From contig OY365813.1 of the NCBI GenBank assembly GCA_959347315.1, forward strand, positions 21,985,272 to 22,049,271: a stretch of 64,000 bases of DNA, written 5' to 3'. The DNA is from Bimastos eiseni (taxonomy: Eukaryota; Annelida; Clitellata; Crassiclitellata; Lumbricidae). Shown here in pieces: positions 9,912 to 53,500 of the stretch (position 1 is its first letter; each line of letters starts with the position of its first letter). Position numbers and translations under genes: made by a program. Below the pieces are notes generated by a model, which was not told the DNA's origin, searched no databases, and worked only from the letters and a program-made list of their open reading frames with translations.

Positions 9912-10334
9912 CTAACCCGCCGTGTGACTTCCATTATCCACTTCCGGTTCTCCATTTCCTGTCCTCGCAGCGACCACCGCCTTCCGATTGAGGCGCCCCC
10001 TATCGACGGGAACCCTCATCATGCGCCGGACATCCTCCGGCACCTCCGTGGCAGGAACAGGGTCAACCAGAACGACCTTGCAGGACCCCTCGTCCTCTAG
10101 ACGTCGACAAAGATCCAGCTGTGCGCTGTTCAGGGCGAACCACTGCCCGTCCTTCTGTACGGCTTGGATCTTGAGTAGCTCGCCAGCCTTCAAGGCGTTC
10201 TTCGATACCTCGATGATACTCTTGTCCAGTTCCGGTGAGATGATGTCCACAGCGTCAGAGTTGATGTGGTGAATCATAGATGGAGACATGGTAAGCATGG
10301 GACCAGGGCGTCGCTGACCACGTGACCTGTACAT
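9912..10334 (-). CDS. Small conserved-looking intronless protein, function unknown
   Basis: A 140-residue ORF with balanced composition between AT-rich repeats. The start chosen is the ATG at 10334, which has A at -3 (CCAAAATG). An upstream in-frame ATG at 10457 would place the promoter-like octamer and CCAAT boxes inside the protein. The middle (about residues 30-105) looks like a folded domain: a hydrophobic IISPEL...A-L-AGELL lead, then WFALNSAQLDLCRRLE, then a short CKVVLVDPVP strand and VPEDVRRMM. The pattern ALN--xL---R-LE--G with a following beta strand recalls ParB/sulfiredoxin-like domains, but this is inference. The C-terminus is Arg/Gly-rich and probably disordered. No signal peptide or TM helix. 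Confidence 0.6.
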   Translation of the reverse strand: MYRSRGQRRPGPMLTMSPSMIHHINSDAVDIISPELDKSIIEVSKNALKAGELLKIQAVQKDGQWFALNSAQLDLCRRLEDEGSCKVVLVDPVPATEVPEDVRRMMRVPVDRGRLNRKAVVAARTGNGEPEVDNGSHTAG

Positions 10335-10363
10335 TTTGGCCACTGACAAGGCGCGGTTTTGAC

Positions 10364-10430
10364 TTCGAATATATGCAAATCTGAGGAATTTAAATTTCAA
10401 CCAATACCAGTTGACTTGTCGTCCAATCAG
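10364..10430 (-). promoter_or_regulatory. Putative promoter: octamer plus CCAAT boxes
   Basis: Upstream of the ATG at 10334 the plus strand reads ATGCAAAT (10373-10380), an octamer motif, next to a weak TATATT. CCAAT boxes follow at 10401 and 10423. Octamer plus CCAAT is a known combination in histone-type and cell-cycle promoters. Its use here is inferred from position. Confidence 0.45.
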
Positions 10431-10439
10431 AATTCCTTG

Positions 10440-10715
10440 AGCAGCTGTTTCAGCCAATCAGAGTATGGCTATGCTGAAAAATTAACTAGTGGCGAATCTG
10501 AATTATAATTAATTTAATAAAGTAGCCGTTTCAACCAATCAGAGAGTATCGCTATGCTGGATAATCTACTATTGGCGAATCATAGCATAATTATTTTCAG
10601 AAAATAACTGTTACCGCCAATCAGAGAGAATCTCTAAGCTGAAAAACTTTGATATTGGCTAATCAGAATATAATTAAACTTTCATTCGAAGCTGTCTCAA
10701 CCAATCACAACATCA
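10440..10715. repeat. ~82-bp tandem repeat, each unit with a CCAATCA box
   Basis: Four diverged units start with a CAACCAATCAGAG-like word at 10454, 10535, 10617 and 10701 (spacing 81, 82, 84). Each also carries a TTGGCGAATC or TTGGCTAATC word and ATAATTA. The array stacks CCAAT boxes behind the small gene at 9912-10334. Confidence 0.8.
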
Positions 10716-16659: not shown

Positions 16660-17358
16660 TCAATCCAACTGACTTAGCTCTGATGTCCCAGCGCTAGCAT
16701 GACTAGTCCTACTCAAAGTTACTGTTGCTGACTCATCGTCGTCTTCCCTATTCTCGCATGGTCTACGCATGAACACAGCCACTTCGTAGGGCGGGGGCAG
16801 AGCGCTCGTATCCGTAGATGGAACCGAGTCGCTACCGGACGTTCCTCGATCGTTTGAGATTCCGTGACCAGGATTGTCATGTCCGTTACTACCCGCCGTC
16901 CTTGTGCTAATCGCTTCGTCGTCTAGATCCTCCTCATCTTCTTTGCAACAGCAACAATCGTTTCCAAAATAGAATCGGAAAAATTTCGTTTCAACGAGCC
17001 AGTTTATGCCCGGATTGCGTCGGCAGCCGCGAGCGCACGAGCCGCACGTACCAGACGAGAAGTAGAACGCCTTGCACAGTTGGGTCCAAGCGAAACCGCA
17101 GCCGACAAATATGGCCACCCAGCATAGCACGCCAAGTACCATGTAGATCCAGCTCGTGGAGTCATCCTCGCTGGGTGCTGGAGATGTCGTGGTGTTCGCC
17201 GCGGTGGTGGTGGAAAATTTGGTGGTAGAGAACGAGAAGAAGGTGGTTTCAGAAAAGAAGTCGCTTGAGTTGTTTTCCATCAATACCCTCGAATGATTTG
17301 ATTGGTTCATGACAAGTCCAATGTGTTTGATTACCACCTGTATTCCTATTGATGGCAT
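16660..17358 (-). CDS. Single-pass membrane protein, Cys cluster and PPPY motif
   Basis: A 232-residue uninterrupted ORF with non-repetitive composition, far longer than chance in this AT-rich region. Residues 1-69 are Ser/Thr/Asn-rich with N-glycosylation sequons (NQS, NHS, NNS, NTT) and no classical signal peptide. Residues 70-92 form a hydrophobic TM helix (IYMVLGVLCWVAIFVGCGF). The juxtamembrane part has CGSCARGC (105-112), then a four-Cys run at 135-138 suited to palmitoylation, an acidic stretch, and PPPY at 188-191, a ligand for WW domains such as those of NEDD4-type ligases. Topology is probably N-out, C-in (type III), inferred. TM plus PPxY recalls Shisa-like adaptors, but the N-terminal Cys pattern of Shisa is missing, so I do not assign it. 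A possible 3' splice site at 17408/17407 (TTTGCATGCAG) suggests this is the terminal exon with a short 5' leader. Confidence 0.6.
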   Translation of the reverse strand: MPSIGIQVVIKHIGLVMNQSNHSRVLMENNSSDFFSETTFFSFSTTKFSTTTAANTTTSPAPSEDDSTSWIYMVLGVLCWVAIFVGCGFAWTQLCKAFYFSSGTCGSCARGCRRNPGINWLVETKFFRFYFGNDCCCCKEDEEDLDDEAISTRTAGSNGHDNPGHGISNDRGTSGSDSVPSTDTSALPPPYEVAVFMRRPCENREDDDESATVTLSRTSHASAGTSELSQLD

Positions 17359-17407
17359 CGTTGCGTCACTCTGAGTCGTAGTTTAAATGCGAAGTGAGTT
17401 CTTCATC
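17359..17407 (-). promoter_or_regulatory. Possible 5' leader with a short upstream ORF
   Basis: On the minus strand a polypyrimidine-AG (TTTTTCTTTGCATGCAG) ends at 17408. It is followed by an ATG at 17406 that opens only seven codons before TAA, upstream of the main ATG at 17358. If transcribed, this uORF could dampen translation. Confidence 0.3.
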
Positions 17408-28894: not shown

Positions 28895-29180
28895 TCACAC
28901 AAAGTAGTCGTTTGCTCCGGCGTAGGGTGCTTCGATTTTAAGGCATCGGATTGCTCGGAGCAGTGTTCTCTGATGCGCTGGAACAGTTATTCCCATCTGG
29001 TCGATGTCTATTTCGGTGAGATGAACGACGTGATTAACGGTACGGTAGCCTCTGTTGTGGAAATTCGGGGCGTAGCAGGCTAGCTGTAGCGAGGCCAGCC
29101 AATGACCGATCTCTTGGTTACCGTAGTGCTGCTGGGCGAGGCTGACTGGCGAAGTTCGAAGGTCTGGGGTTAGAGACGGA
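28895..29180 (-). CDS. EPH: Eph exon: SAM domain and C-terminus
   Basis: Acceptor TGTTTTTGTAG|T, first base completes Ser904. Encodes residues 905-998. The SAM fold is recognised by [18 protein letters not shown], then [20 protein letters not shown] and HQRTLLRAI. It ends ANDYFV, a hydrophobic tail that could be a class II PDZ ligand (inferred). Confidence 0.96.
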
Positions 29181-32100
29181 CTACAAAAACAGCACACGTC
29201 AAATAGATAGCTGGGTAAAGAATTGGTTAGAGCATTGACCTTGTAACGCAGAGAGCATTTATGGGTTCGATCGTCGTCCTCCCTAGAGAGGGTTACTGTG
29301 TAGGGACCTTGAGCAAGAACTCCTTCACTCACAGTTGCTCAGCGCCATCGAATGAGGTTTGATCATTAGTACATTACGTGGTTACGTTTCACAAGCAAAT
29401 AATTATAATAATAATAGATTTACCAGATATTCAAATTAATCAACAGTTGAACAACCAGACTATGACCTTCCTCGGACTAACCTTTTGATAACCCATTTGA
29501 TTTGACGCAGCGCTCGTGAATAAGCTGGTGCTCTGCGTTTGGCTTCCAAGTGGCGCTTTAGAAGTTTGGAGATTATGAAACGATTACTCATCAGATGATT
29601 CAGATCATCATTTAGGCCAGCAGTGCCCAGCACCGAGAGCACCTTTGAGCAGATATCGTGAAGGCGGCGGCGCTTTATAATATAGTCGCCCCTTCTCTCT
29701 GCTAATATCATTATTATTATTATTACTATTATTATCGTTATTATTTTTAATGCTCTGAGGTACTTCGTTTCCCCAGGGGCTTAGAAATTACTATTATGAT
29801 GTTGTCCGGAGGGTCAGGCCTCGTCTTCAGAGGTCAAAGGATTATTATTATTTTTATTATTATATTTACTCTCACTATTAGTGTTGCCGTTGTCATTATT
29901 ATTTTGGCAATCTCCGAATCTGTTAGTTCTCTCTCTCTCTCTCTCACCTGATAGATTCGTGCATTGATCCTCGTTGCGTTGGACCCTGTCTGAACGTCTG
30001 GAGGTTTCGGACTAAGTAACTAAATGATGGTCTCTGGTCTGGGATCTGAGCCCAACACTTGGTCATCAGCTGTGAGACAACCTCTGGACAGTTCTGTTTT
30101 CGACAAAACAAAAAAGAAGTTTATTCAGTTTTTATTTAAATTTTAAAGTTAATAATTGTGATATTGATATTATTTTCTGCTTTCGACACAACAAACGTCA
30201 GTTTATCCATACGATTATCTCAATTTTAATATTAAAAATTGTAGTGATATCTTATCTATATTACATGTTGCTAGACATACCTATTCATATCAAACTCCGA
30301 TACTGCTCGCAGTGCCAGTCCCAAGCTTGGATAAAGGAGGAGGGCGACGTTAATGATCTTTGTTATCAAACCAATGATCTGTTATTACAGTGTTGTTAAA
30401 CTGAAACCACTGGTCCAGTCTGCCACTATTCATATCTATACACCAAAATCATATTAAAGTCAAGCAATATCTTAACCCATGGAGATCATTCACGATATCT
30501 TCTCAAGCTATCCAGTAGCTCAAGTTATCCAGCGCCTTTTTCCGCACCTCTCCTATCCAAGTCAGACTCACCTGCGGCGCGTGGAGCCTGGTGCCGTTGA
30601 TGACGGCTCTGGCCACCTGTTCGTCGGGCCACGTGGTGTAAGGAGTTTCCCCGAGTGACATCACCTCCCACATGACGACGGCAAAGCTCCAGACGTCGGA
30701 GGCGACGGAGTAGCGTCGATGGGTGAGGACTTCCGGTGATGACCAACGGACCAGAACATTCTCCGTCTAAGACGATAAACAAGTAGAAGGGGCGGCGCTA
30801 TATAAATGCTCGATTACATTACACTTGATTTGTCCCTCCCATTACCTCGGATCGGAGACCAGAGCCAAACAAAGACGTCATTTTCCTCCATCTCACTCTG
30901 TCCCGCGCACTTCTGATGCAATCCGCTCTCGGCAGTCTCATCCACTCCTCGCTGTCATCCATCCACCGTCTTCTAGGTCTACCCCGTGCTCTTTTACCAT
31001 CCACCATTACACTACGTTCGCAAATAACAATGCTACAGCTGAGACTAATATGGAAGAGATATGAAGTCGACGAAAACTGGCAGATTTTGTGTGTGACTGC
31101 ATCCGGGACTTTTGCAGGATATATCGGCGTTTATTTTTGTTAACGAAATGAAACGACTTAATATATATAGAATTTGCAAAATAAATAAAATGTGTTCAAA
31201 TGAAGATTTTTGACTGGACTAGCGTAAATTTAGATGAACTTTTCGGCGATTATACGTTTAACGTTATCCTGCCAAGAACCCGGATGGTATTTCATTCATT
31301 AGCCTACATAGCCGATCACAGACATTGCCAGCAATGTATTAGAAAAGACGATCACTGATTGGCTGTCACGTTGCGACATTATACACCTTCCATATTAGCC
31401 AATGAGAAATGAGCAGTTGCTACAGCCATGTACAATGTGGAATTATATGATTGGGCCGAAATAATTTAACCGTCAGTGTGTACTCGCGATAACCGAATTG
31501 GCTCGGGGTGTACAACTGCATATGGGGCAAAAATCTTTAACCAAATCTGGGTGTGGGGTGATTTGAACCTCTGAAACTCCGAAAGATGGTTCAGCGAGCA
31601 AACCATTGCACCATCAGCACGATGAAATGCAATACGCAGAGTGGCAGAGTGTAGACCAGAGCAGAACGTAAGTGAAACATTGCACGCCAAGTGCAGACGA
31701 AGCCAAGCCACCCCAGCGCAACACATCCTCCTCATATCTAGATTAACCGACAAGAAACACACGAAAAACCTGGTCCAAAGATAAACAGGCGCCCTTCCCA
31801 GAACCAGAAGAAGATATGTTGATGAAAATGCTCATAAAGAAAGAACCGAATGAAGATAACACCCATCAGAATACACGTAGGTCCGAAAACGTACACCATC
31901 TGTCAAACATCTCCCAAAGAATAAGCATATTATAGGAAGCCCGCGAATGCTGCGCAGACGGACCCCAACGCAATCTGTCATAACAAGACATATGGACAGC
32001 TTGAAGGTGCCACATTAGGGTGTCATATAAAGGCGCTATATGATCCCTAGCCACCTCAGACCAATAATAATCGCTGTAGAGATCTTCTGACGTCGAATAT

Positions 32101-35100
32101 AAACCTGATAATCGGATAATAAAGCGATGTTTCTTGTACCGACGAAAATCAAGAAACACGATTATCATCGGATGATTAGCGTTTAACACATGGCCAGAAT
32201 GTTGTAAGTGAACTCTTAAACCATTCGGCAGACCAACAAAAAATAGCCATTCACTTCTTGCACCATTCATTTGTTCATTCATTCATTCATTTGCCCCTTT
32301 AATTCATTCACTCACCACTCATTGACTCACTCACTTACTCACTCATTCACTCACTCACTCACTCATTAACTCACTCACCCATTTATTCACGCATTGACTC
32401 ATTCATTCATTCATTCAGTACACAACAACTACATAAGTAAATTGCTTTCATTTGCATTTGACAGGGCAGCGATTCACCCATTCAGCCAGTGAATTAGCTA
32501 GCCAGTCAGTCAGTCACCTGGCTAATCTGGCAGCCACACCGCCATATAGTCAACCAAACAGACAGCCAGTCACCAAGTCAGTATCCCTCAACCTATCAAG
32601 CCAGTAAAGACAGCAGCCAATACCATAGTAAGACCCACCTGATCGTATTGAACTCCATCCGCATTCAAGAAGCAAAGCATCTCGAAGGAAGACAGTTTGC
32701 AGACGAGATTACCGTCCACCTGAACGCTCTTTGCCGACAAATCCTACGAATTTAAAAAACTGACAAATAAAATAGAAAAACACCACACAACGCAGCAACA
32801 ATTCATGATAGGAAAAACCATGAAATAATAAAAATAATAATAATGATGATAATAATAATAATCAAAGTAACTTTCGCCGTTCATGGGAACGAACAATATG
32901 GCCATTCCAGACAACCAACATATTTTAAGAAAATGAAGAAGAAGTAGAATAAGAAGAAGAAGGAGTCTAATTTCAAACTGACAGCATCGCAATATGATTA
33001 CAAGCACAGTGTGAAGGAATAATGACGAGTTGCTACGGGAGTAAAATTTAATTGTCGGCAGCAAAGAAGAGAACCTACTCTTAGAGTGTAACCCTGTTCC
33101 GTAATGTACTCCATGGCCGACGCCAATCCTTGCAGCATCTCGACTAAGTCACCCATCATCAATCGAAAGCCATTCTCCTATAGAGTCAAATAAATACAGT
33201 AAAGATTATAATGCTTAGCAATGAAAGACGACAATGTAAAAGGTTACAAGACTATGTTCAAGCTTCAAAGGCTAGCAGATCAGTTCAAAGGTTAATCAAT
33301 TCAGTTCAAAGGATAGATGATTCATTTTAAAGTTAGAAGTTCCAGTTGAAAGGTTAGAAGATTCATTAAACAGGCTAGAAGAATCAGTTTAACGGTTAGA
33401 GAATTCAGTTCAAAGGTTTGAAGATTCGGTTCAAAGGTCAGAAAAGCCAGTTCAGAGGTTAGAAGAATCAGTTCAAAGGTTGGTAGATTTAATTCAAAGG
33501 TTAGCAGATTCAGTTCAAAGGCTAGCAGATTCAGTTCAAAGGCTAGAAGATTCAGTTCAAAGGCTAGAAGAGTCAGTTCAAAGGCTAGGAGATTCAGTTC
33601 AAAGGCTAGCAGATTCAGTTCAAAGGTTAGAAGATTCAGTTCAAAGATTAGAAGATTCAGTTCAAAGATTAGAAGATTCAGTTCAAAGGCTAGAAGAGTC
33701 AGTTCAAAGGCTAGGAGATTCAGTTCAAAGGCTAGCAGATTCAGTTCAAAGGTTAGCAGATTCAGTTCAAAGGCTAGCAGATTCAGTTCAAAGGCTAGAA
33801 GATTCAGTTCAAAGGCTAGCAGATTCAGTTGAGTCCCACACATTGCGCTGCTTGCAAGGTATACAAAGAAAACGAGAAAGAAAGACAGACCAAGACCACC
33901 GTGAATGGACAACACAAATGCCGATTAATACATCTCTTCTACTAACGCAATAACGGACAACAGTAAACTTGACAAATGACCGACGACAATGGAGATCATT
34001 AATTCGTAAATTCCCGGCAAATGATTGGCGTCAGAAACTGATGATGAATTAGTTTCGGAGAATGGAATGACATAGAAACGAAGAAAGAGAACGATTACAT
34101 TCCTCAGATATTGAAAGAAATCTGTCAAACCTTGATGAAAAACGCCAGAGACCCGTTCGACATGAATTCCGTGACCATCATGTAGGGCGTCGTTTTTGAG
34201 ACGACCCCTAGGAGAGTGATGACGTTTGGGTGGCTTAGCCTCCACAGGATCTCGGCTTTCGATAGCAAGTGGATCCGATCCTCCTCCGAAGTGTTCTCGT
34301 TCAGACTTTCGATCATGATCGGGACTTCCGAGGTTCCTTGAGTCATGAGCTTGCCGACGCAGACGTTGCCGTAGGAACCTGGAGCAGTCAGGAAGCACTC
34401 CTGATTAAGCTGGTGCCCTGCACTTGACTCTCAAGTGGTGCTCTAGAAGTTTGGAGATTACTATTAGGAAGGGAAATAGATAATCCTGCCGAGGTATTGA
34501 GACCCAGACTCACTGGACCCACAATGTGGGTCATATTATATCACCTGCGATAATCCGCTCATCCATCCTTCAATCGATCCAGCTATCCATTCAGTTATCC
34601 ATTCATTCATCTATTCATCCATCCATCCATTCATGCCTCCCTCAATCGAACCATCCATCCATCCAACCATCTGACAATGCATCCAAATAAGCACACATCG
34701 TGTCATCCATTCATCCAACCATGCATCAGTATATGCAACCCTCCATCCACCCATCCATCCATCTAACGCCCCACCCACACATCCCCCCACCAACAACACG
34801 TCCCTTACCCTTGAGCAGTATGGATTCGATGGTGATGGCAGCTGGCTCTATCTCACAGACCCTTTCCCTAGTACAACTCAACGGATCTTCGTAGGCGAAG
34901 GGATCCGCGTAGATGTGCAGACTGTCCGTTCCAGACGTAGACGGAAGACTAGCTGAAAAGACATCAACACAACCTCAGGCCACGGGCGGAAACTTAGGGG
35001 GGGACAGCGGGGGACGGTCCCCCCCCAAAAAGTTGATAAAGCAGCCTATATCCCCCCCTCAAATTTCAGGCGAAGGGATCCGCGTAGGGCTGGTTCGTGG

Positions 35101-38100
35101 TGTGCCTGCCTGTCCTAGTTTGCGGGTTGTCTCAGGTCAGTGAGTGTCTCATCATCCTGAGGTGCAAGACACCAGGCCGAGAGATAAGAGGCCGACCTGC
35201 AAGTCAATTTAAAGTTCAGAGGCCGTGACCTCGCCTGGGTTTCGATGCTGTGTCTGGTAAACGTGTGCTTAGCTGTGTGTCGACTCTCTAGTATTGGCTA
35301 CACAGCGTGATGCTTAAGGTATAGTGTACTTAAGCAACCGACGGTGCAATCATATACATGCTGCAAGAGAGGGTATGATAAATTATAATGAATATTGAAT
35401 TGAAATCTTGACAAAATATTTTTAGGGCTTCGTAACATACATGCTTAAATTCACGCAGACCGAACTATCTTTTAAAATAAGTTTCAAAACTGATTATGCC
35501 TAATCAGCATGATGAAGGTTGAAATTGTTATAATTATACTTTTAAGGAGTAAGGCTATCCTTCGAACAATGAAATAAGGCGGCCCTTCACGGCCACCGTT
35601 GCTTCATCTGCTATCAACTCTTTTCACTTTGTTCCTAACAGTTTATGTGGTTAAATCCTCATCCATAAGTTTACTCATTTTATTGCATTGAGCGTCTTTT
35701 AATATTTGAGTGATTTAGTCTAGCGGCAGCGTTGGATTTTTGTGAAAAATGAAGCGAGATTATTATAGTAGTCAACAAACAATCTCATACTGGATGAGGT
35801 AAGCGTAGTTATCTGTAACATAATGTAAGTGTAAAACCATTTGGACTTGTATCCCATGTGCGACGGAATAACCGTGTATCTAGTGCGTATACGGTATTGT
35901 GGCAGTGACGACTTTAGCCATAGGCTCGGGCCAACTTACCTGCGTCTCTCCCGGTTGCATACCATGGCCCCTCAAAATCAGACCCACCCATCATGGTTGG
36001 CTAAGTTTAGAATTGCCAAAGTTTTTTATTATTATTATTTTCATGTGTTAGGCTTGCCAGTTACGGCGCTGTGCGTTGCATGGCTAGTGCATCTAATTGA
36101 AGAACATGGGCCTAATTACTTAGCTCTATTATTAGTATCAATAAAAAATTCACATTTTAGTTCTCTAGAGTCTAGATCTACGCTCAACTGTGCTTCAAGT
36201 ATTGCTGTTCTGATCATCTAAACCGTCGTTTAGTACGTAGTGGTCGATTGGCTGGAGTGGGAGAGACGCAGGGGTCTACAGCATACACAAGCCATGGGAG
36301 ACCATTGAGTATGGTCTCCACTTTTCGATTTTTATTTCATTAATCAAGATGAAACTTAAATTATCATCTCCCCTGAGCTATTCATTATTAAATACACTCA
36401 GCAGAACAGCAAACAAATGTAAATGAAAACGCTTTTATATTGCTACCGTATATACGCCTATAATATAACCTCGACCCATCTCATTTTTCAATAAGAATCT
36501 GATCCAGAGAGATCCCTCATCACCGCTCGTCCTTTGAATGGATGCCACGCCATCATTATACACTAGCCTTGCTCAAAATGAGATTTGTAACGTAATGGGC
36601 GCCATGCGTGGATGCCGACGGTTAAATTCGACTCCTGTAGTAAGGTTTTTATTAAATTAATAATAATAATAATTACTTAGGGTTCCCATGCAAGGACCGT
36701 ACTAAACCAAGATTTAAATATCTGAAATAATCCAGCATCGATAAGCGAACCGCAGTAATAATAAGATATTCCTTTATTTAGAAATAACAATATCGGACAA
36801 TTACTCAGAAATGCTTAGGCCTGCAGTCAGTCGCTAAAAGAAATTTAAAAAACTAGTAAATATTTTGTTATAATGATCTGGGGATAAATTTAGTCGTCTT
36901 GGGGTGGGAGAACATGGTTGTGTACTCTTAATTGGTGATTGGCGTGGGTACGGCGTGGAGGTAGGAGTTGGTTAAAACATGCTCGGGGTTATGTAAAATG
37001 GAAAAAAGGAGACGCACGAGACGCGGCCTATTTTTGTATTTTTGCTGCATCCATGATTGGGAATTAAAATTTCCTCCGACCTGTCCCCCGAACCAAATTT
37101 CTTCATCTGTCCCCCCCCCAAACCCGCGACCAAGTCTCCGCCTGAGCTCAGGCGCTATATAAACTAAGTTGAAACTGCCTGCACTTTGGCAGTGCCATTC
37201 TCAAGCCTGGATAAAGGAGGAGAGTGATGCTAATAATGACTTATTTATCACACAGTGTCATTAAACTGAAACTACTACCAGTATTTATCTGTAAAATTCC
37301 GCCACTGTAAAGTTCTTTCACAGTGCCAGTCCCGAGCCAGCGAAAAGGAGCAGGGCGACGCTAATAATCCTTATTATCACACAGTGTCGTTAAACAGAAA
37401 CCACTACTACTGCATCAATTGATCAGTATATGGAGGAGATACTTACAACTGCTCTGGTTGACGTGAACTCGACCAATTGACTGAGCGCCTACAACACATA
37501 AAACACCATTAATCAATCTCCTTCAAAGACGACCCATGACCTCTGTACCTATGAGCCATCTATTGATTGAAGCCTTTTCAACACAGGCAGCTTATATTAT
37601 ATTGAAGATTTTCAGACGATTGCTTAATTGCAATTCAGTGCTGGTGAATGTGCTTTCGAAGTTTTGATATTACAATTACGACAATGATCATAATTACAAT
37701 TACCGTTGATGTATTTCAGCATATCGCAGTCGCTGCTGTTGCCTTCGCAGCTACGTTTCTTTCGCCTGCAAACCATCACAACACATCTTAATAGCAATAT
37801 CATTGGCAGAACACGATATCCTATATCCAATTGGTCAGCGAGCTCACATTGTAACGGGTTCAAACCAAGCGTCGTATTCACCACTAGGCCAGCAAGGCCC
37901 TGGCCTAGTGGCAGAACATTTCAAGGGATGGCAAAACTGGATATAAATTTTTTTGAATGGAAGAAGTAAATGATAGCAAGCCAGTGGACTATACTGTTGT
38001 TACAATTTAAACCAATACTGTAATACACTCACAAAGTTAACACATTTAATTTAGTTTCGTTATTTAATAAAAACAGACTTGCATAGTGTTGCTTTCTCTT

Positions 38101-41100
38101 CTACTATGACGTCTGTTAAAATTTCTGGATTTCAATATGCAATTTCAATTTTGGGAGGGGTGACATAGAAATCTTGGCCTAGAGTAGGAATCCTCTCTCC
38201 CTTCCCCAATAAAGACAAGCCTAGGTTAATTAAATCTAAAACGAGGCCAAGCAAGAGTCTTTGTTCGAATTAATTAATGCATTGGCATATGATGATTCAT
38301 GATTCATCGTTGTCTTTCTTCTCAAGCCGACGCCACCGACGCAGGTGTTCAATAATCAAGCGACGAATGTTCGACGAATGTTCAATAAATGCGACCCAAA
38401 ATAAAGATAAAATCAAACGAGACACACCATCGATGTCATCAATAAACGGGCGGAGGGAAGTCTAGCAGGGCAAATGTAGCAGTTTCAGTTTAACAACACT
38501 GTGTTATAACAAAGATCATTGGCGTTGCCCTCCTCTTTTCCCCAGGCTTGGGACTGGCACTGCTATTTGTGCGAGCAGTGGTGTAGCAGTTAGTAGTATA
38601 TGTAGGTGCAGTTTAATGACACTGTGTCCAGCGTCGCCCTCCTCCTTATCGAGGCTTGGGACTGGCAATGCCTGAGTGCGAACGGGGGCGGACAATAGAT
38701 TCGATTACCAAAGAATAAATCACACTACAGGTAATAATTGATTGCATAATTCTGTTGCATACCTGTAGATGAGTACAACTGCGACAACGGCGATGATGAC
38801 AACGCAGACAACAACGCCAACCGCTGTACCTACGATTATTGCAACGATATTCGGAGACTGAGAGACAACCGGTAGATATGCTAAAACAACCAATTGACAA
38901 CACACCGTAAACTCTATATGCTACATTACACCTGGGAGTCTGGGACTAATATGGAAGTGATATGAAGCCGCAACGTGTCGATTTTATCCTGCAAAAGTCC
39001 CGGATGTAGTCACACACATAACCTTGGTCAGTGGATGCTAATAATAGGCTTCTATGTTAGTCCAGATAACGCGTATACACATAACAATCGTGACCTTAAC
39101 GGCGCTGCAGATCATCTTATACCCTTGTACACTCTGTAATATCACACAAGGGAGCTAGGGTAATCATATAATCCTAACCAGATAACAATCTGAGATATTT
39201 CCAAGTAATGGAAAGAAGACATTGTAATCTGATATAATACAAAGAAATGGATTTGGAATCAACTGAGAAGGCTCCTTGCAGGGGTTTTATACAAATAACC
39301 AAATCAACAACTCGGATGGTTTTGCAGCCAAGGTAGAGCTACGATAATAGACACACTTCACTATAGGACATTTTGCTGTTGAACACGAATTAGAGGAGAG
39401 ATACATTAGTACCAGAGAGAAAAAAATCAATAAACTTATCTAGACGATATCAGTTTCAGTAAGCGATATCTCTGATGATGGTTTCATCGGGGTTACTTTC
39501 TTGACTCTGGACAGAATCAAGTTAGGTCCGTATATCAACGAGGCCTACCGAGAGGAAGAGAGAGAGAGAGAATTGGGTGAGAGAGAGGGCGAGTGAGAGA
39601 GGGTGAGAGACTGAAGGTGAGGAAGAGAGAGACAGATACAGAGAGACAGAGACAGACAGACAGAAACAGACAAGACATAGAGAGCAAGGTAGATCCTCTT
39701 GGTTATTATCTGAAGTATAGGCCTATATGGAGGCTGTACTTTCAACGCAGTCTTTTGTCTGGTGTTGCACTCTGCCCTCTACTTCATCTCCAGAACGAGA
39801 CTGCCTCTTGTGAAACGCATACATTTGCTAGCAAACGGTTAATCTTTTCACACCTTCCCACCACAACAACTTCAATCTTTCGTCGAAATCTCTCCGATCT
39901 CGCCCTTCCTGCTCTCTCACCCCCTAAAGATGTCCTAACCCTCTCTTCCCGCCTTCAGATTCTTTTCCGGCTCCTTTAAACTGGGACAAAAATGGATATT
40001 GTCTCACATTTCTCCTCCTTCATTCATCCATTTCCGAAAAAATCTTTACCCAAAAATCTTCACCTCCACAGCCTCAAACCACCCTCTACCAGACACCCAC
40101 CTCACAACTCTCACCTCTCGTCACTCCCACCCTGTTAAACACCCACCTCCCATCTCACAATCTCTCACCAACAACACCCCTCTCACATTTCCCTCACATC
40201 GCTTCTTCCTTGCAATACACTCCTCTTCTCACACCTCCTTCTCACCTTCCTCATACCAAGCATCACCCTTTGCTGCAGCTTCCCATGCCCCATGCCCACT
40301 CTAGCCACCCTTAGCCGGTACCCTCTCTCTCCTCGTGTGTATATGTTAGACATATTAATGAATCAATGAAGCTTGATATAGCGCCTTTTCGAGAAATCTA
40401 CTCAGAGGCGGTCCCGGTCCAACCTCGGCCAAATAAGACAGATTTTATATGGAATGAAAAAAATGGGGTAGATATAGTTCATAGGTAAGAGCCGAAGATC
40501 CATTGGGAAGCTATTCCAGGCAGTCGACATGTATAGGTCTATATAAGAGATCCAGAGAGAAAATAAGTCAGGAAAATGAGGTAAACATAATCGTTATGAA
40601 CGCTTTTGTTACAGCGGCGACGAGTTAATTGGAGAGATGGCTCTTAAGAAAATCTGTTCCGTTAATTAAGAATTCGTCATCGACTCACTTTCGCTCGTTC
40701 CCGATCGCAGGTCGGTCTTAGCGGACACCGGGTTGCTGTAGTCGCCCCACGAGGACAACACCCTTCCTCTTACCTGCAAATAGGAAACATTTGAGAGTTC
40801 GTTTATGTCGCTTCTCATATAGGGCGTTTCACATAAAGCGTTTCACATAACACTGACACTGACAGAAGACATTTCACATAAGGCATTTCAGGTGAGACGT
40901 TTCACATATGACATTTCACATAGGGCGTCCAAGACATTTTACAAATCACACAAGACGATATTTCGCATATATATATTATAAATAATATATAAAAAAATAT
41001 ATAATATCGGGCGTTTCGTATAAAGGACAAACAACGCGCGCCAACCAACGCAGTAGGAAACTTCGAGAAGGCAATCACCACCTGAGAAAATCTCACCCTC

Positions 41101-41589: not shown

Positions 41590-44500
41590 CGATTCTCTGC
41601 CATCTTCCCTTGTGTATGTCTGTCTAAACTAATGGCTGGATTCTCTCCATCGGCTTCTCGCTCTTTAAAGACGTTTCTTTTCCGTGGAATTTCTGGGCTG
41701 TACTCTGAATAGTTATTCTGTGAGAGGCGTTATATAAATCCAAAGAAAAGATACGATATATATCCGCCTATTTGTCCGTCTCGTTATCATTCTGTATCTA
41801 GTCTTTCCTTCCACCTATCCATCCACACAAAAACAAAAAAGTCCCTACTCAAATCAACGAATGATTACCGAGCCTCAAACCTACCTCCACCCCTCCCCTA
41901 GTGCAAAACAGTAGACTCGTCCACACTTCCACCCCTGCAAAACAATAGACCCGCCCGCCCCTCCCCAAACAAAGACACGGCACATCAAAACAATTCTTAT
42001 GGTAAGAGCAAACAACGCTAAAGGTCCAATGCATATACACCCACGCTCTAACGAGACAACAACGTACTACAGCCATCAAATCTCTGTACACAAACAGACA
42101 AAAAGCTATGGATTACATGTCGCTATTTACAGTCCTGACAGTCACAATTGTTGGGTCTACATTAGACACAGAAGCAAGCCACTATCAGACACCAAATAAG
42201 TATGGAGATTATTCATTTATGAGCTAGGAACCTGTCGCTTGGAAGTCCTGTCTAAATCCATGCTATAATGACGTCATTCGTTCAATACAATATTGTCCTA
42301 ACATGCTTAATTAAGTAATTATTTCATGTATTTCTTCGTATGTTTGTTTATTATCTCGCAACACAATCGCGTCATGTCAAATAAAAACAATTAATTAAAT
42401 CGCTCATACATTCGTTCATTTATGTATTCCAGAGGTGTCAAACTTTTTGTAATGGCGGGCCAGTAGCAATAATATTTTTCCAGACAAGAGTTCCGAAGGC
42501 GTATGAGGGAAATGGGGTAGAGATCTCAGAGGGGGCATACAAACACTTTAATTAGGCCTTTAAGACGTGATTATGATATGCATTATCAAAAACGCCTTAA
42601 AATGACAAACTATACCTTTTATGCTCAATAATTAATGTGTAGTCTCAAGACAAGGCTCCACGGGCAAGAAGTATCTCGTCCGCGAGCAAGAAATGATTAA
42701 TTCTCTCACCAACACTGCTTACAGTCCAGCAGTGCCAGTCCCAAGCCTGGATAAAGGAGGAGGGCGATCTTTGTTATCACACAGTGTCGTTAAACTGCAA
42801 CTAAAACCACCATCTCTCGTGTGTGATATTCATTACTCTACAGCCCCAATTCATCACCCTATGCCCCAATTCATCACCCTATGCCCCAATTCATCACCCT
42901 ATGCCCCAATTCATCACCCTATGCCCCTCTCCAACTGACCTGGAAGATGTAGACAGTGCTGGCAGAGAGACCGCTGACGGTAGCGTTGGGAAAGGCGGTG
43001 GAAAGGGAGTGCGTCATGTTCCCAGCTGTCATCTCCAGGTACCTCACTTCGAAGGAGTTCACAGAAGTTGGATTGACGTCTAGAACAGTCCAGACCAGAT
43101 CCAATGAATCTGTACCTATTCGAGCAACGTAGAGATTGGCGATCCGTGGCAGGCCTATGTAGAAGAACAGAACAATGTCGTTCAATATCAATTCATTCAT
43201 TCGTTCGTCCGTTCGTCCATCCATCCATCCATCCATTCATGCAGCTAACCATCCACTGATTAATTAAATCGTTCATTCATTCATTCACTCATACATTAAT
43301 CCATCCTTCGTCCATCCATGCATCCATCCGTACATTCAAAAATTTATATAGCTCTCTTTCCAGGTAAACTATCATTCATTCATTCAGTAATCCATCCATC
43401 CATCCATGCAGCTATTCCTCCATCCATCCATCAATTAATTTGTACATTCATGCATTCTTTCGTTCGTTCGTGTGTTCGTTCGTTCATTCATTCACTCAAA
43501 AATTGATATAGCATCATTTCCAGGTGACCTCTCATTCGTTCGGCGCACATATTCATTTATTAATTCATATTTTTATATAGGGCCTTTCAAGATAAATTAT
43601 TATTCATTCAAGGCACTTATTCATTCATTCATTAAAAACTTTATATAGCTCCCTTTCCAGGTACCTACTGAAAAGCGCTCCCAACTCCATCCCCGACAAA
43701 AAAGTAAGTTTTCAAGTGACCATAAAATGCACCACTGCACAATTTATGGAACATACGTAATTCCAGAGGTAGGCCATTCCAAACCCTAAGGCCTACCACA
43801 GAGAATGCAACCCTTTTGCATAGCTGCTGTACAGACAAATGGAACCCCAAAAATCCTATCAATACCTGGCCCTGAACGCCAGTAAAACACTCACCTCACT
43901 TTGAAATTTATATAGCGCCCACCGAAAAATGTCACTCGGAGGCGCTCCGAGCACAACCACAGCTCTACAGCCCACACTAATGCAAAAAAACTGTCAGACT
44001 ATTGAAGCCCCACAACCTGATATGAACCAAAATGACATCCACTTTAATTTGGACAACCCGTTTTATTTGATGCAAGCGCTCGTGAATAAGCTGGTTCTCC
44101 GCGCTTGACTTTCGAGTGACGCTTTAGAAGCTGGGAGATTACAATTACGATTATAATTACGCACTCCTCACTATAGCTTCACGGAAGCAGCGGTTGTTTT
44201 ACCTGAGTAGAAACTGGTCGTAGTGAACGCTATATCGGTGCCAACCGACGTCTGACCAGGAGATGAGGAAGAGGAGGAGGAACCAGTTGGTGATGTTTCC
44301 ACGTAGATAGTCACTCTATAGGTAGAGGAAGGCTGCAGTCCAATCAGGTTCACGCTATGAAATCAACGTAATTATGTAACCATCGTTACGCGATATATAA
44401 AAAAATGGAAGATTAGGGTGGGTATTATTCAAAGGGGCAGTGGAATAATCCTAGGTCAATGGGTTCTATAGCATCACTAAGGAGTTATTTACCTCAGCAC

Positions 44501-47500
44501 AAATGTCTAGATACGCATAATTTGTACATACATCTATAAACACACAAACATTCATTCATTCATGCATATACACACATAATAATGTAATGCATACAACATT
44601 ACACATAATCATACATGCGCACATACACACAAACATGCAAAAAAGCATATATATATACATGTATATATATATACATGTATATATATACAAGTATATATAT
44701 ATATATATATACATGTATATATATATACAAGTATATATATATATATACATGTATATATATACATGTATATATATATACATGTATATATATACATGTATAT
44801 GAGATGGTTTACGAAAGTCAATTATGCGAAATCCCGTGTTCAGCCACGTGACATATCACGTGACGCATCGGACAGGAGCAGTTTTACAGGTAAGACGATA
44901 ATTCCTACGGTAGATCATAGATGTCCGACGACCGATAATTATTCTTCGGCGGATGTTTACTGCTAATGGTTTATTGGAAACCTTTCTTCACGCCTCCTCT
45001 TCGATTACGTTATTTGTGTGTGGAATAATAATGATGCCCAGATATCTGGCGAAAACAGTTTTACCGCCGAATCTCGCATTGACCGGCCTTGGCCTGGGGC
45101 TGGTCAGAGGCTAAAGGTCAAAAGTCAGGGCTAAAGCAACCGTCAGAGGTCAAACGTCAACGGTCAGAGGCCAGTGGGAAACGGTCAGGGACTCATGGTG
45201 AAAAATCAGGGTCAATGGTCAAAAGTCAGGGACTAAGGACTAAGGGTCAAGGTTGAGGGTCAAAGGTCAGGGTTAGAGGTCAGACCGTAGTTGGCACTTT
45301 GGACTACTACAGCACGTTAGGGGTCGACTTGACGGAATCTCGGGGGGGGGGGGGTGATCACCCGGTCCCAGAGGCGTCCAGATAAGCAGGGGTGGGGCTC
45401 AGGAGGCAGATGCCTCCAATTTTACGTAGGGGGATATTTTTTTTACTCTTAGGGGCAATATTTTGCCTTCCTTATCCTTGGGACTGAGGGGTTTGTTTTG
45501 CCTTGCCTCCATCACTCAGAGGTATTGATGGCTCTGCCCGATTCAACATTGAGAGGTACGTGGGTCTGTTAGTCTTCATGGATCCTTAAAAAGCTGACAT
45601 TGCTGTACTATCTGAGAAGCGGAGTGGTGATGCAAATCTCCTTACAGACTGCCACCGAATAAGAGCGGGCCCTTTAATATAACAACCAGCGGCAGAAGTG
45701 GGCAGGATGCGGCCAATAGTTAGATCCCCTGCACCTCAACCTCTCCTCTTTCTTCTTCTCCTGCTCCTCTTCCGCCTCCTACCGCCTTCTACACCTCATA
45801 TTTTTCCTTCCTCTCTTCCTTTTCTTCCTCCTTATCCTCCTCTTTCCTCCTCTTTTCCTTCACATCCTTCTCTTCCTCATTCTTCCAATCTTCCTCCTCT
45901 TCATATTCTTCCATCCATATCCTCTCCTTCCATCTCCTCCTCCTCCCTCTTCTCCTCCACCTTATCCCTCCTCCCTCTTTCTTTCCATCTTCCTGAATTT
46001 CTTCCTCCTTCTCTTCCTACCCTCCTCCTCGTCGTCGTCCTCCTACTTCTCTTCCTCGTCCTCCTCCTCTCCCTGCTTCCTCTTCTTCTTCTTCTTCCAT
46101 TCCTTCCCCTCCTTCCCTTGCTTCTCCTCCTTCTCGCAGTCCAGTCCCTCTCTCCATCAAAGCGTCAACGCCGACACCCGACTAGACAAAGACCCCATCA
46201 TCGTACCTTGGGGAAATCAGTCCAGCCTGCTTCGGAGAGTAGGTGACGCCGATTGGGCAGGCCGTGCACTGCGCCCGATAGGAGAGAGGGGCGTCCTTGT
46301 AGTTGCCCGTTCGGTCGCTGGGCGGCTGCCACGAGAGACCCGCAAACGTCTGGTTGACGAAATTCACCCGAAGACCTTCGACCGGTCCAGGCAAATCTAA
46401 CATCAACCGGAAATAGACACGTGAAGAAAGGACAGCCAATTACAAAGCGTTAAACGAAGTCACAATTAATTAGGTCTGATACTATGATAAAAGAGGTGAA
46501 ACGAAAGCCAATTGCAAAACGTTAAAAATGACACAGGTCACATTTAATAAACAGGTCAATTTCAAACTGCTAAATGAGGACGCATTAAATTAGGTCAGTT
46601 ACAAATCGTTAAATGTGGCCGCATCAAATAATTCCATTAATTGCTTAGGCCCTGCATAACCTTGACCTTATTTGTCTCGCATTTGTCATCGCTCGCGAAT
46701 ACGCCGGTGCTCTGCTTTTGGTTATCGAGTGGTGCTTTAGAAGTTCGAAGCCTGCGATTACTATCACCATCTTTATCCATACAACCCGTATAGATCAGAA
46801 ACGCCTTCATACATTTGCATGTACACCCCAAACATCCCGGCATGCACCGGTTTCCCTTGGAGCGGTGAAAGTACATAATTACCACACCTCAGAGGTATGA
46901 CAAAAAAATAAAAAAAATATGCTCAGGACAGTTAAAAAAAACCTGTCTTACTCGTGCAGGAGGCGTTGACGCTGTCAAAGGCATGCCGTGAAAATCCGTC
47001 GTTACAGAGACACCCCGTGGATCCACTTGTCGTTGTGTTACTGTTGGCTGGACAGACGATGCATTGACTGTTTCCTGTGTTGGACTTGTACGTCTGAATA
47101 GGACATTCTGCAGAGAAGATACGATACAGAAAAGACAGCTATGTAATTACGACTACAGTATGAGCAATGAATGCTACTGGGTTTGATTAGGAAGAGGAAG
47201 CAAGTCATAGGCCAGCGTTAAAGGGACTACTCTTCCTCTGCTCCTACTGCTCCTTCTCCTGCTCTGCATTCTGTTCCTTCTCCTGCTTATCCCCGTCTTC
47301 TTTCTATTTCTCTTCCGCCTCCTTCTCCTCTTCTTCTACGGTTTCATCATCATCTTTCTCTTCTTCTTCTTCCTGCTTCCTCCTTTTCCCCTTCCTCCTT
47401 CTTCTTCCTCCACCTCTTCCTTCCTCTTTCTCCTACCCCTCTAATTCCTCTTCACATTCTCTTTCTCTTCCTTCTCTTTCCTCCTCCTCTTCAAGTTCTT

Positions 47501-50500: not shown

Positions 50501-53500
50501 AATTCCCCAACCCTTGCACTCACCTTCACACGTCCCTCTCTCCTCATTCTTCTGGAACCCGGCCACGCAGCGACATCCATCCACCACGAGGTCCATCCAG
50601 CTCCCATCGGCCATACACAGCGCGTACAGCGCCTGCTCGGCCACGGCATGAGGGGCGCACACGGCCCTCGCCTGCACAACAGACGTCAGCTCCGGCCCAG
50701 CCACAGTCCTCCCAAAGACCGTCAGATTGACCACGGCATCGGGACACACGACATAATACACCCTCACGGACAGCAGTGTCATGCAGGCTCCCTGATCGTG
50801 GAAAACCAAATAGATCCCACGCCTGGTAACAGCCACGCTTCGAGTGATCTCGTTTATGGTCGCATTATCGATCTCCGTGAACAGCTTATCGGCCGCGATT
50901 ACATCGACGCTACGGTAGGCGCTCTCGTCCCACGCAGTGGTGGCGTTGTCCGAGTCCGAGTCGGCCTCGCTGTAGAGCAACTTAAAGGATTCCTTGCAGA
51001 GCTGGACGCTCGAGGGGTCAGGGTGGCGGGAACAGCGCCGCATCGTGAAGCGCATCGTGATGTAGAGGCGGTTGGCGTCCTGGCGGGGGAGGAAAGGGGT
51101 TCGGGCCCAGTTGTCGGCCGCCGAGTAGTCGATGTTGCAGATCGTGTAGACGCGTAGGACTTCACCGCCTGAGGTGGAGTAGCTCGCCTCGCGCCACTGA
51201 AAAGATAAATGACAAGGTCAAATCGGTCTGTGTGCGTCGACGGATCATGTCTGGTTACGTAAGGTCAAGGTCGGGCGTCACAAGGTCAAGGGCAGATGAA
51301 GTAAGATCAAGGTCAGGTGTCGCATGATCATACATAAATGCGTCACATGATTAAGGTCAGGCTTCACAATGTCAATATCAGGCCTCACAATGTCAACACA
51401 AGATCTTACAAGTAATAGTACTTGAATACTGAGCATACACTTGCCATACTGCATTATAGTGCTGTATTGTATTTGAGCATTTATAATGCGCCTCTAGTAT
51501 GGGTGAATCGTTCAGAAGCACTGTCAGTGCACAAGGCCACGCGAGAAGAACCAGGTTGTGAAAAAAGCAAAACAGGACAAGAGACTGTGAGATAGAATTT
51601 TAGAGCGACCAGAAGGAGAGAGCACATTACAGAGTGAGGGACCATAAGATCAGTTTAATATAATATATTATTACCATCCGCATTCTTCAAATACTTTTAC
51701 CGTATAGTGGATCAGTATAATTACTCACTTAATATCAAATAATCTCGTTTTAGAGTGGTATGGTATCTTTCATTCATCGATTTCAATCATTCTTCAAATG
51801 CTCCTGGTATACAATTACATAATTCCTTCAATGCTACAATTAGCATACTTGGATAATCTGACCTTAAATAAACTAGTGCCCCACTTGTTCATTACGTCTG
51901 CAGCTGAGTTTAAGTAGCTCATAAAGAACGCTTTGTTGGAAAGTCCGTGAGCGGCGATAAGGATGGAAAGGAACGCCAGCAGACATCTATGGCAATAAAG
52001 GGAAGGCGAGATAACTCCGTCTCCTCCTAAAAGTGTTCTGCACTCGGAGGAGCATTGATAGCGGAGGTCTGACCCTACAATGGTCAGACAAACGGTGTCC
52101 ACTACCACCTCCTAACATACTGTGGCTTGATTCATGGTCCAGGCCTGTTGAACAGTTCTCGAGAGGTCGGGGTTTCTATTGACACCAGGACTTAAAGCTG
52201 TCTGGAGATAGTTCCGCCATTGGGTGTAACTGGAGTTCGTCAACACCCTATACAATATTTTTTCACGAAATTAATGTCTAAAAAAACTACACTAACCATA
52301 ATCCTGTTTAACCCGACCCTAACCGACGCATGTTACAAATTTATGTATGATTTGATTGACCTATAAAGCACGAATCGTTGGATAGGGTGTTGACGTACTC
52401 CAGTAATACCCCGCCACTGTTCGCACTCTAGCAGTGCCAGTCCCAAGCATGGATAAATGAGTAGGGCGACGCTAACTATGTTTGTCATTGCAGTGTCGTC
52501 AAACTGAGACCACGACTATTACATTCACTTCAGACGTCAAGGACTTTAGTTTCAATAATGATTATTAATGACATTGTCAAACAACGATTGATGATATGCT
52601 CCATTTAGACACCTTTAAAACGTTGTCGAACGGCTTATATTAGTGTCAGACTAAGTTCGACTATTCTCGACCCACACCAGGGCTAAATTGTGTAAGTCCG
52701 CCACTGTTTGCTCTCTGACAGTGCAAGCCTGGATAAAGAAGAAGGTGTCGTTATATTGCAACCACCACTACTCAGCGAAAGTCACACTGCCATTTGACTC
52801 GACATGCAATCGTTGAAACATGCAGAGTCCACTACCAAATTTGTAACCACTCTGCATTGCGTATGTCCTCATCAGACATTTGTATATCAACCCAGTTGTC
52901 TGATTATAATTAAGGTGCCCTCTAATTTTTTGGCGATGGTGTGCACAAGAAATGTTGCAACATCTTAAAATAGTTAAACAGCAACCAACAGTACTGTCTG
53001 AGGATTTCTGCTCTGACTGCACCTCTCCCCACCCAACTCGGCAACGATGAGTATACCGACCCTACACTGTCGGTGGGAAGATGAGACGGCGAAGGAGATG
53101 ACAGGCCAACCACCATCGTACGCCGAGGTCAAGAAAATAAATTCGCTAACACTTCGATCCGCGACTGCGACGGTGAGTAAGTATGCAAGGACCTTGAGCA
53201 AGTTTTTCACTCTCAATTGAAGCTCTTTCGTTAGATCCTGGCACTTAGGAAATGCCGAAATAATAATAATACAAATTGTTGTATCATAAGCACTCCAGTG
53301 TCTGCTTTGTTTCATCATTAGTATCGCCTGGCCCCAGACACAATGTTTTTACTATGGAACAGGTTGCCGCTACGCCGGTCTATATATAAGTTCTCTTTCA
53401 TCCACTGCCATGGCAGCCTCTGATTCCTCTCCTGCCACCATCTCTCCCTCTCTCTCCATTCTTCCTTCTCTCTCTTTCTCGTTCGATATCTCTGTCCGTC

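Follow-up and report, generated by a model that had tools for sequence, protein, structure and literature searches.

The 64,000-nucleotide stretch of Bimastos eiseni DNA analysed here (contig OY365813.1, positions 21,985,272 to 22,049,271; hereafter the window) carries on its minus strand a gene for an Eph receptor, which we call the window gene. Judged by the loss of its motifs, this receptor is predicted to be kinase-dead. The reading we prefer, with a probability of roughly 0.58, is that it is a functional Eph receptor pseudokinase which was duplicated within this annelid lineage and stands beside at least four Ephs with intact kinase motifs. A first-pass annotation of this DNA had proposed that the gene encodes an intact receptor with a dead kinase and conserved juxtamembrane tyrosines. 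Our gene model and alignments support this proposal, both tyrosines being present.

Kinase motifs of the window gene

We rebuilt the gene exon by exon. It consists of 16 exons, from E2 (57762-57683) to E17 (29180-28895), and encodes 983 residues; there are no internal stops, all introns are GT-AG and the phases agree across exons. Scans found no exon 1 or signal-peptide exon. A Pfam scan of the protein identified nine families, each above its cut-off, including Ephrin_lbd (163.4 bits, residues 1-177), Ephrin_CRD, Ephrin_rec_like, fn3, EphA2_TM, PK_Tyr_Ser-Thr (228.6 bits, model positions 2-258 of 258) and SAM_1 (49.4 bits). These follow the Eph domain order of ligand-binding domain (LBD), cysteine-rich region, FN3, transmembrane segment, kinase and SAM, and on this architecture the protein belongs to the Eph family. 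The span reported by the first-pass annotation, 29948-34952, matches E11 to E16 exactly, and its statement that frames and splice sites are intact was confirmed by the rebuilt exons. The full gene extends further both ways, upstream to 57762 through transmembrane, FN3, cysteine-rich and ligand-binding exons, and downstream to 28895 through the SAM exon.

The kinase motifs were aligned to the EphB2 kinase 1jpa with HMMER and to nine other Ephs, and two MAFFT alignments were made. Residue numbers are those of the rebuilt model; adding 15 gives the numbers of the first-pass annotation. E11 (34809-34952, minus strand, as are all exons of the gene), placed by frame and alignment, retains both juxtamembrane (JX) tyrosines, JX1 Tyr591 and JX2 Tyr597, and begins the Gly loop, which reads L-K-G-S-Y-G, with Leu623 at the first glycine and the second and third glycines retained. 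The alignments place the kinase N-lobe in E12 (34131-34378), where VAIK has become IMIE, with Met646 at the alanine and Glu648 at the beta3 lysine, the alphaC glutamate is Lys665, and WRL (670-672) replaces the GQF pocket. E13 (33079-33177; frame and alignment) covers alphaD to alphaE and terminates in the LR of LRD, the counterpart of HRD, in which the arginine and Asp741 are retained. By alignment, E14 (32639-32743) holds the catalytic loop and DFG (D-LSAKS...SFE): the catalytic asparagine is Ser746, the beta7 leucine equivalent to PKA L173 is Gln748, and DFG is SFE (Ser759 to Glu761), its aspartate lost and its phenylalanine retained. The activation segment in this exon is slightly shortened, by about three residues relative to the paralog C8b, and Tyr773 lies one position off the usual column. 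In E15 (30572-30766; alignment), which runs from SPE, with the glutamate of APE retained, to alphaG, the W, Y and P that contact the SAM linker are T819, T834 and H837; we placed these three columns on the alignment ourselves from the wording of an Eph review (PMC8347583). E16 (29948-30093; frame and alignment) spans alphaH to alphaI and the start of the SAM linker, where PELLR is absent. The gatekeeper Thr, DVW, CW...RP.F and the alphaF Asp are all retained. The regulatory spine (R-spine) positions, mapped from PKA, are Leu, Leu, Leu and Phe with the alphaF Asp, and we take them to be usable.

A pseudokinase is defined here by the loss of at least one of the beta3 Lys, HRD Asp and DFG Asp. 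The window gene has Glu648 and Ser759 at the first and last of these and retains HRD Asp741. Because the lysine site is Glu and the alphaC site is Lys, the ATP-anchoring ion pair is charge-reversed (Glu/Lys for Lys/Glu) beyond being merely broken. The residues named in the first-pass annotation for the first glycine (its Leu638, our Leu623), the alphaC Glu (Lys680, our Lys665), LRD (754-756), the catalytic Asn (Ser761, our Ser746), SFE (774-776, our Ser759 to Glu761) and SPE were borne out, as were the retained gatekeeper Thr, DVW and CW...RP.F. Its assignment of Met661 to the VAIK lysine was not. Methionine at the lysine is ruled out by the alignment to 1jpa, with which both MAFFT alignments concur: Met661 is the VAIK alanine, and the lysine is Glu663 (our Glu648). 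The description of nearly every catalytic motif as lost goes too far for the HRD Arg and Asp, the DFG Phe, the APE Glu and the second and third glycines, all of which are kept. In a model of titin kinase, a pseudokinase that acts as a scaffold, methionine at the VAIK alanine is described as occluding the adenine pocket (PMC4042850), and phenylalanine at that site reportedly blocks ATP in KSR1, RAF, PKC and Akt (PMC12721161). The latter source also describes the PKA L173 equivalent as always hydrophobic.

The window gene is exceptional among the kinase domains compared. From 250 proteins, 247 matched the kinase seed and 243 did so over more than 230 positions, seven being dropped; these 243 rows are 239 Ephs taken as active (236 from the database and three paralogs from this genome), three non-Eph kinases and the window gene. 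The beta3 Lys, alphaC Glu, HRD Asp, catalytic Asn and DFG Asp are retained in 242 of the 243 rows, and the window gene is the sole row with core losses, lacking four of the five. This census was drawn by similarity from the top of the list and contains many isoforms and near-duplicates, and a degenerate Eph would have fallen too far down the list to be included. The fifth Eph locus of the genome, C8c, was found after the census and enters only the later trees of the seven-row clade described below.

The first-pass annotation had named transcripts using alternative exons with intact VAIK, HRD and DFG as an observation that would speak against its claim. A tblastn search with six Eph proteins (E 1), covering the window and the 8.6 kb next to it on the upstream side, found no intact alternative kinase exon. 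The same search recovered E3 to E9 and E11 to E17; its 13 other matches were weak, and none involved the kinase portion of a query.

Eph genes of the genome and phylogenetic position

Searching the genome with an ephrin-binding profile gave four loci: C8b (chromosome C8, ~18.06-18.09 Mb), C14, the window gene (C8, ~22.02-22.04 Mb) and C16. A fifth Eph locus, C8c (C8, ~24.9 Mb), was found with the window kinase as query and has kinase and SAM exons; its ligand-binding exon was not seen, part of the locus reading N, and that of C16 was seen in part. Five loci is a lower bound, because only the best candidates were scored and the matches listed are incomplete. All four paralogs share with the window gene the Eph domains and identical kinase exon borders, and C8b and C8c share its chromosome and strand. 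They differ from it in that all four retain VAIK, HRD (as HR-DLAARN, with LAARN intact) and DFG. With the C8b kinase as query, the N-lobe exons of C8b, C8c, C16 and C14 rank first among the matches listed, at 74-90% identity, and the window gene follows at 37%, below two other tyrosine-kinase loci. The first-pass annotation had considered that a species with only one Eph would have entirely kinase-independent forward signalling. A sole Eph is ruled out by the five loci, at least four of which, besides the window gene, have VAIK, HRD and DFG. Since C8b, C14, C16 and C8c keep these motifs, kinase-dependent Eph signalling would be available and the dead Eph would have active partners.

Chromosome C8 carries three of the five Eph genes identified, on the same strand and within 7 Mb, an arrangement suggestive of dispersed tandem duplication. 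The genome contains 14 ephrin-family matches, which we count as about ten places; six of the 14 have a stop inside the match. Ephrin ligands are likely to be present given these matches, and the ligand family seems expanded.

We conclude from the trees that the window gene is, on sequence comparison, a product of this annelid lineage's own Eph expansion by duplication. In the tree with C8c, it falls in a seven-row set comprising the five Ephs of this genome and two database proteins, with bootstrap/Shimodaira-Hasegawa-like approximate likelihood ratio (SH-aLRT) support of 100/99. Its pairing with C8b has bootstrap/SH-aLRT support of 83/92 with C8c included and 96/86 without it. Neither grouping with C14 (p 0.231) nor placement outside the clade's other five rows (p 0.167) was rejected by approximately unbiased (AU) tests, and forced grouping with four vertebrate Ephs cost 30.8 log units and was weakly rejected (AU p 0.046). 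Because the window gene's branch is long (1.77 in the tree without C8c), we limit the claim to duplication within the lineage and name no exact sister. In single-domain trees, the LBD exon groups with C8b, C14 and P0001 (SH-aLRT/bootstrap 92.2/95), the kinase with C8b, the rest of the ectodomain with P0014, and the SAM domain with Pomacea, Biomphalaria and Owenia (outer node 88.2/83); C16 was omitted from both ectodomain trees, its LBD exon being split. Orthology to EphB6 or EphA10 was not found, the window gene standing apart from the vertebrate Ephs in a set that held no EphB6 or EphA10 row.

Database searches, each scoring about 8000 candidates, identified no ortholog among the 12 proteins retrieved, of which the best, P0001, is an active Eph with 37% identity. 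Nor was there one in the best 120 of 3848 matches of a further search or in the best 120 of 598 to the P0001 query. In the latter list the best named relative of P0001 is Owenia; together with eleven matches to Eryth_link_C, the linker of annelid erythrocruorin, this agrees with an annelid host.

Function, constraint and rival explanations

Two vertebrate Eph pseudokinases offer the closest comparison. EphB6 is reported to have VAIQ, an alphaC Arg, HRSxxxxS and RLG with GxGxxG kept, and EphA10 to have VAVH, the alphaC Glu, HRGxxxxH and GFG with GxGxxG kept and no JX tyrosines (PMC13259870). Mammalian EphB6 resembles the window gene in its Eph architecture, in the loss of the beta3 Lys and DFG Asp and in keeping both JX tyrosines (PMC13259870, PMC8347583). 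The likeness extends to a basic residue for the alphaC Glu (Arg in EphB6, Lys here) and to Ser for the catalytic Asn in both. However, the Gly loop and VAIK Ala persist in EphB6, which is described as binding nucleotide, whereas the window gene has Leu623 and Met646 (PMC8347583, PMC13259870). EphB6 also keeps GQF, which in other Ephs forms the pocket that holds JX1, and the SAM-linker contacts except for Tyr to Phe, both of which are replaced in the window gene (PMC8347583). Conversely, the HRD Asp is lost in EphB6 and kept here, and placental EphB6 has lost 15 activation-loop residues, against about three here relative to C8b. Of an EphB6-type design, then, the window gene has the JX tyrosines and lacks the Gly loop and VAIK Ala as well as the GQF and SAM-linker contacts. 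An origin independent of EphB6 can be inferred because the window gene sits among lophotrochozoan rather than vertebrate Ephs, in trees with no EphB6 row. EphA10, too, is kinase-dead and has active sisters in its family; it keeps the alphaC Glu and Gly loop, whereas the window gene has IMIE, Lys, LRDxxxxS, SFE and the JX tyrosines (PMC13259870). Titin kinase shares the Met at VAIK position 2 and a replaced DFG Asp; it is part of a giant muscle protein unrelated to the Ephs, retains the VAIK Lys, and its Met is said to hinder the closed ATP-bound form (PMC4042850).

The window gene is best read as encoding an ephrin-binding, nucleotide-free co-receptor with intact JX tyrosines. EphB6 is reported to bind ephrinB1 in trans and to co-cluster (PMC11021433), and its JX sites to be phosphorylated by EphB4 and to recruit Abl, Src and Vav3 (PMC13259870). 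By analogy, the dead Eph would bind ephrins on adjacent cells and co-cluster with active Eph receptors, its JX1 and JX2 would be phosphorylated by those Ephs or by Src-type kinases, and it may then recruit SH2 or PDZ partners or merely hold cells together. The pseudokinase domain would serve as a nucleotide-free spacer or scaffold, uncoupled from the brakes exerted through the juxtamembrane (GQF) pocket and the SAM linker. The receptor's C-terminus, -NDYFV (28895-28912), is hydrophobic and might, as we read it, serve as a class II PDZ ligand; in some relatives the protein terminates near SEGFL.

A more specific proposal, which we advance tentatively and think rather unlikely to hold as a whole, is that this is a second Eph pseudokinase design that evolved independently in an invertebrate. 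Met646 would plug the adenine pocket, the first glycine of the phosphate loop being gone, and the reversed Glu-Lys pair could stabilise the N-lobe without nucleotide. Loss of the brakes at GQF and the SAM linker would leave the JX tyrosines accessible for docking at all times, in clusters with four or more active Eph sisters and opposite some ten ephrin loci. The receptor might thus be an integral modulator of an enlarged annelid Eph/ephrin code.

Constraint has not been lost evenly along the protein. Identity of the window gene to C8b, compared with that between C8b and C14, is 55% vs 67% for the LBD exon, 27% vs 46% for FN3-1, 32% vs 46% for FN3-2, 39% vs 62% for the juxtamembrane region, 41% vs 76% for the kinase and 24% vs 52% for SAM. 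Tip branches of the window gene and C8b are 0.66 vs 0.27 for the LBD exon (2.4-fold), 1.65 vs 0.60 for the rest of the ectodomain (2.8-fold), 2.17 vs 0.11 for juxtamembrane plus kinase (~20-fold) and 2.08 vs 0.19 for SAM (~11-fold). Distances to Owenia follow as 1.40 vs 1.01 (LBD), 2.87 vs 1.76 (rest of ectodomain), 2.38 vs 0.32 (kinase) and 2.41 vs 0.89 (SAM). The LBD is altered modestly, and the kinase and SAM domains far more. All 16 conserved ectodomain cysteine columns, among 11 rows compared, are retained.

Within the kinase, 158 columns are invariant in the 239 Ephs, and the window gene keeps 11 of the 24 that we designated catalytic or nucleotide-binding and 74 of the 134 others. Losses at 13/24 and 60/134 sites, one of the 60 being an alignment-end gap, show no catalytic preference (Fisher p 0.51), and since catalytic sites were lost no more than others, constraint appears to have dropped across the entire domain. 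The first-pass annotation had held that selection keeps the fold but not catalysis. The first half is consistent with the 60 of 69 invariant hydrophobic kinase sites that are still hydrophobic; the second is not borne out, as catalytic sites are not singled out.

Several of these results weigh against a functional pseudokinase co-receptor. Equal loss at catalytic and other sites fits plain relaxation as well as new function. Divergence of the kinase and SAM domains far exceeds that between active paralogs, and FN3 identity is low too. The GQF pocket and SAM-linker contacts that EphB6 keeps are lost, a clean Met-completed catalytic spine (C-spine) is disfavoured because the L173 equivalent is Gln, and the SAM and rest-of-ectodomain trees conflict with the others. 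The main rival explanation draws on the same observations: an ephrin-binding decoy or an adhesion or reverse-signalling receptor, in which the ectodomain and its anchor matter and the intracellular half is relaxed and has no scaffold role. The excess of tip branch length in juxtamembrane plus kinase and in SAM over that in the ectodomain, the indifference of the losses to catalysis and the missing GQF and SAM-linker couplings are all as this explanation would have it. A pure decoy could, however, have become truncated, whereas here the intracellular frame is open through 407 codons in seven exons, the hydrophobic kinase sites are largely kept, and the JX tyrosines, R-spine positions and hydrophobic C-terminus are retained. 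We regard a decoy as rather unlikely.

The remaining explanations are far less probable. Decay as a pseudogene, which would suit the fast evolution of the kinase and SAM domains, is hard to reconcile with 16 intact exons, canonical splice sites and the absence of internal stops. Third-position GC is 0.66 against 0.42 for the window as a whole, and Nei-Gojobori (NG86) estimates for the LBD against C8b give a nonsynonymous rate (dN) of 0.36 and a synonymous rate (dS) of 1.3. For the kinase, dN is 0.53-0.54 against paralogs, and dS, not computable with C8b and 2.82 with C14, is saturated or nearly so. In 300 simulations of neutral drift at 0.1 substitutions/site the whole coding sequence never stayed open, and of 1000 runs for the 407 intracellular codons 1.6% did; at 0.05/site the figures were 0.7% and 11.6%. 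An open frame is thus improbable under neutral drift, and we consider a pseudogene very improbable. An atypical active kinase, in the manner of the WNK-type exceptions and with the retained HRD Asp working through a non-standard Lys, is equally improbable. Exceptions to the motif rules are known (PMC4718504), and the window gene still has the HRD Asp and Arg, the gatekeeper Thr and the alphaF Asp. Against this, it has lost four core residues at once (beta3 Lys, alphaC Glu, catalytic Asn, DFG Asp) and carries Met for the VAIK Ala. We give least credence of all to an assembly, annotation or masking artefact, such as a chimera with another gene's kinase exons. Although the exon chain was joined from genomic sequence alone, its kinase exon borders agree piecewise with three paralogs, the losses are substitutions rather than frame errors and are spread across five exons (E11-E15), and the exons lie in order on a single strand within the 64-kb stretch.

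As a kinase-dead Eph, the window gene is on present motif evidence an independent invertebrate case. According to a survey of Eph history, the three catalytic motifs occur in every phylum and kinase-dead Ephs go back to jawed vertebrates; for some invertebrate groups it notes only isoforms whose kinase activity is altered (PMC6993872). Elsewhere it is speculated that some Eph-like proteins may be catalytically null (PMC6485061). We found no announcement of an invertebrate Eph pseudokinase gene in the titles and abstract openings of the open-licence papers listed, a scope outside which figure S10 of PMC6993872 (motifs by ortholog) falls. Dead Eph receptors are therefore probably not solely a vertebrate invention. 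A whole invertebrate dead-kinase Eph gene beside active sisters would mean that Eph families shed catalysis repeatedly upon expansion. Its partial convergence with EphB6 (basic alphaC, Asn to Ser), combined with its differences (plugged pocket, brakes lost, HRD Asp kept), would provide a natural test, suggesting that a dead Eph must keep ligand binding and JX tyrosines and perhaps not nucleotide binding.

Remaining exons and other features

The ligand-binding domain starts in E2 (57683-57762), supported by splice sites and lying within the Ephrin_lbd match. E3 (50524-51196) encodes the ephrin-binding and cysteine-rich domains (Ephrin_lbd, Ephrin_CRD) and is 55% identical to C8b and 54% to C14. 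E4 (46952-47107) is the EGF-like or Ephrin_rec_like module (match 240-281). Splice sites and frame define the two parts of FN3-1, E5 (46207-46396) and E6 (44203-44354), and of FN3-2, E7 (42940-43154; fn3 match 422-506) and E8 (40689-40773). The transmembrane segment is E9 (38763-38880; EphA2_TM and splice sites), followed by the basic stop-transfer or cytoplasmic linker (RRKKRS...) of E10 (37704-37765), which the reading frame requires. E17 (28895-29180) encodes the SAM domain (SAM_1) and the C-terminus, and ends in the stop.

Within the intron that separates E12 from E13, a 21-bp unit is repeated about 27 times (33264-33830). As the unit length is divisible by three, an open frame crosses the repeat on each strand, the two being 186 and 200 codons long. 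Elsewhere on the minus strand, two open reading frames (ORFs) at 2005-2920 resemble, by eye, pieces of reverse transcriptase of the long interspersed nuclear element (LINE) type, the longer having no Pfam match. Two non-repetitive ORFs at 9918-10457 and 16663-17382, the second with a transmembrane-like stretch, are possibly exons of a neighbouring gene; a Pfam scan of four neighbouring ORFs in the window, these two included, gave no matches. In the wider genome, besides a likely mitochondrial contig (C118), six full-length COX1 matches lie on chromosomes C4, C5, C6, C15 and C16 with TGA as their sole 'stops', and these are apparently recent nuclear copies of mitochondrial DNA.

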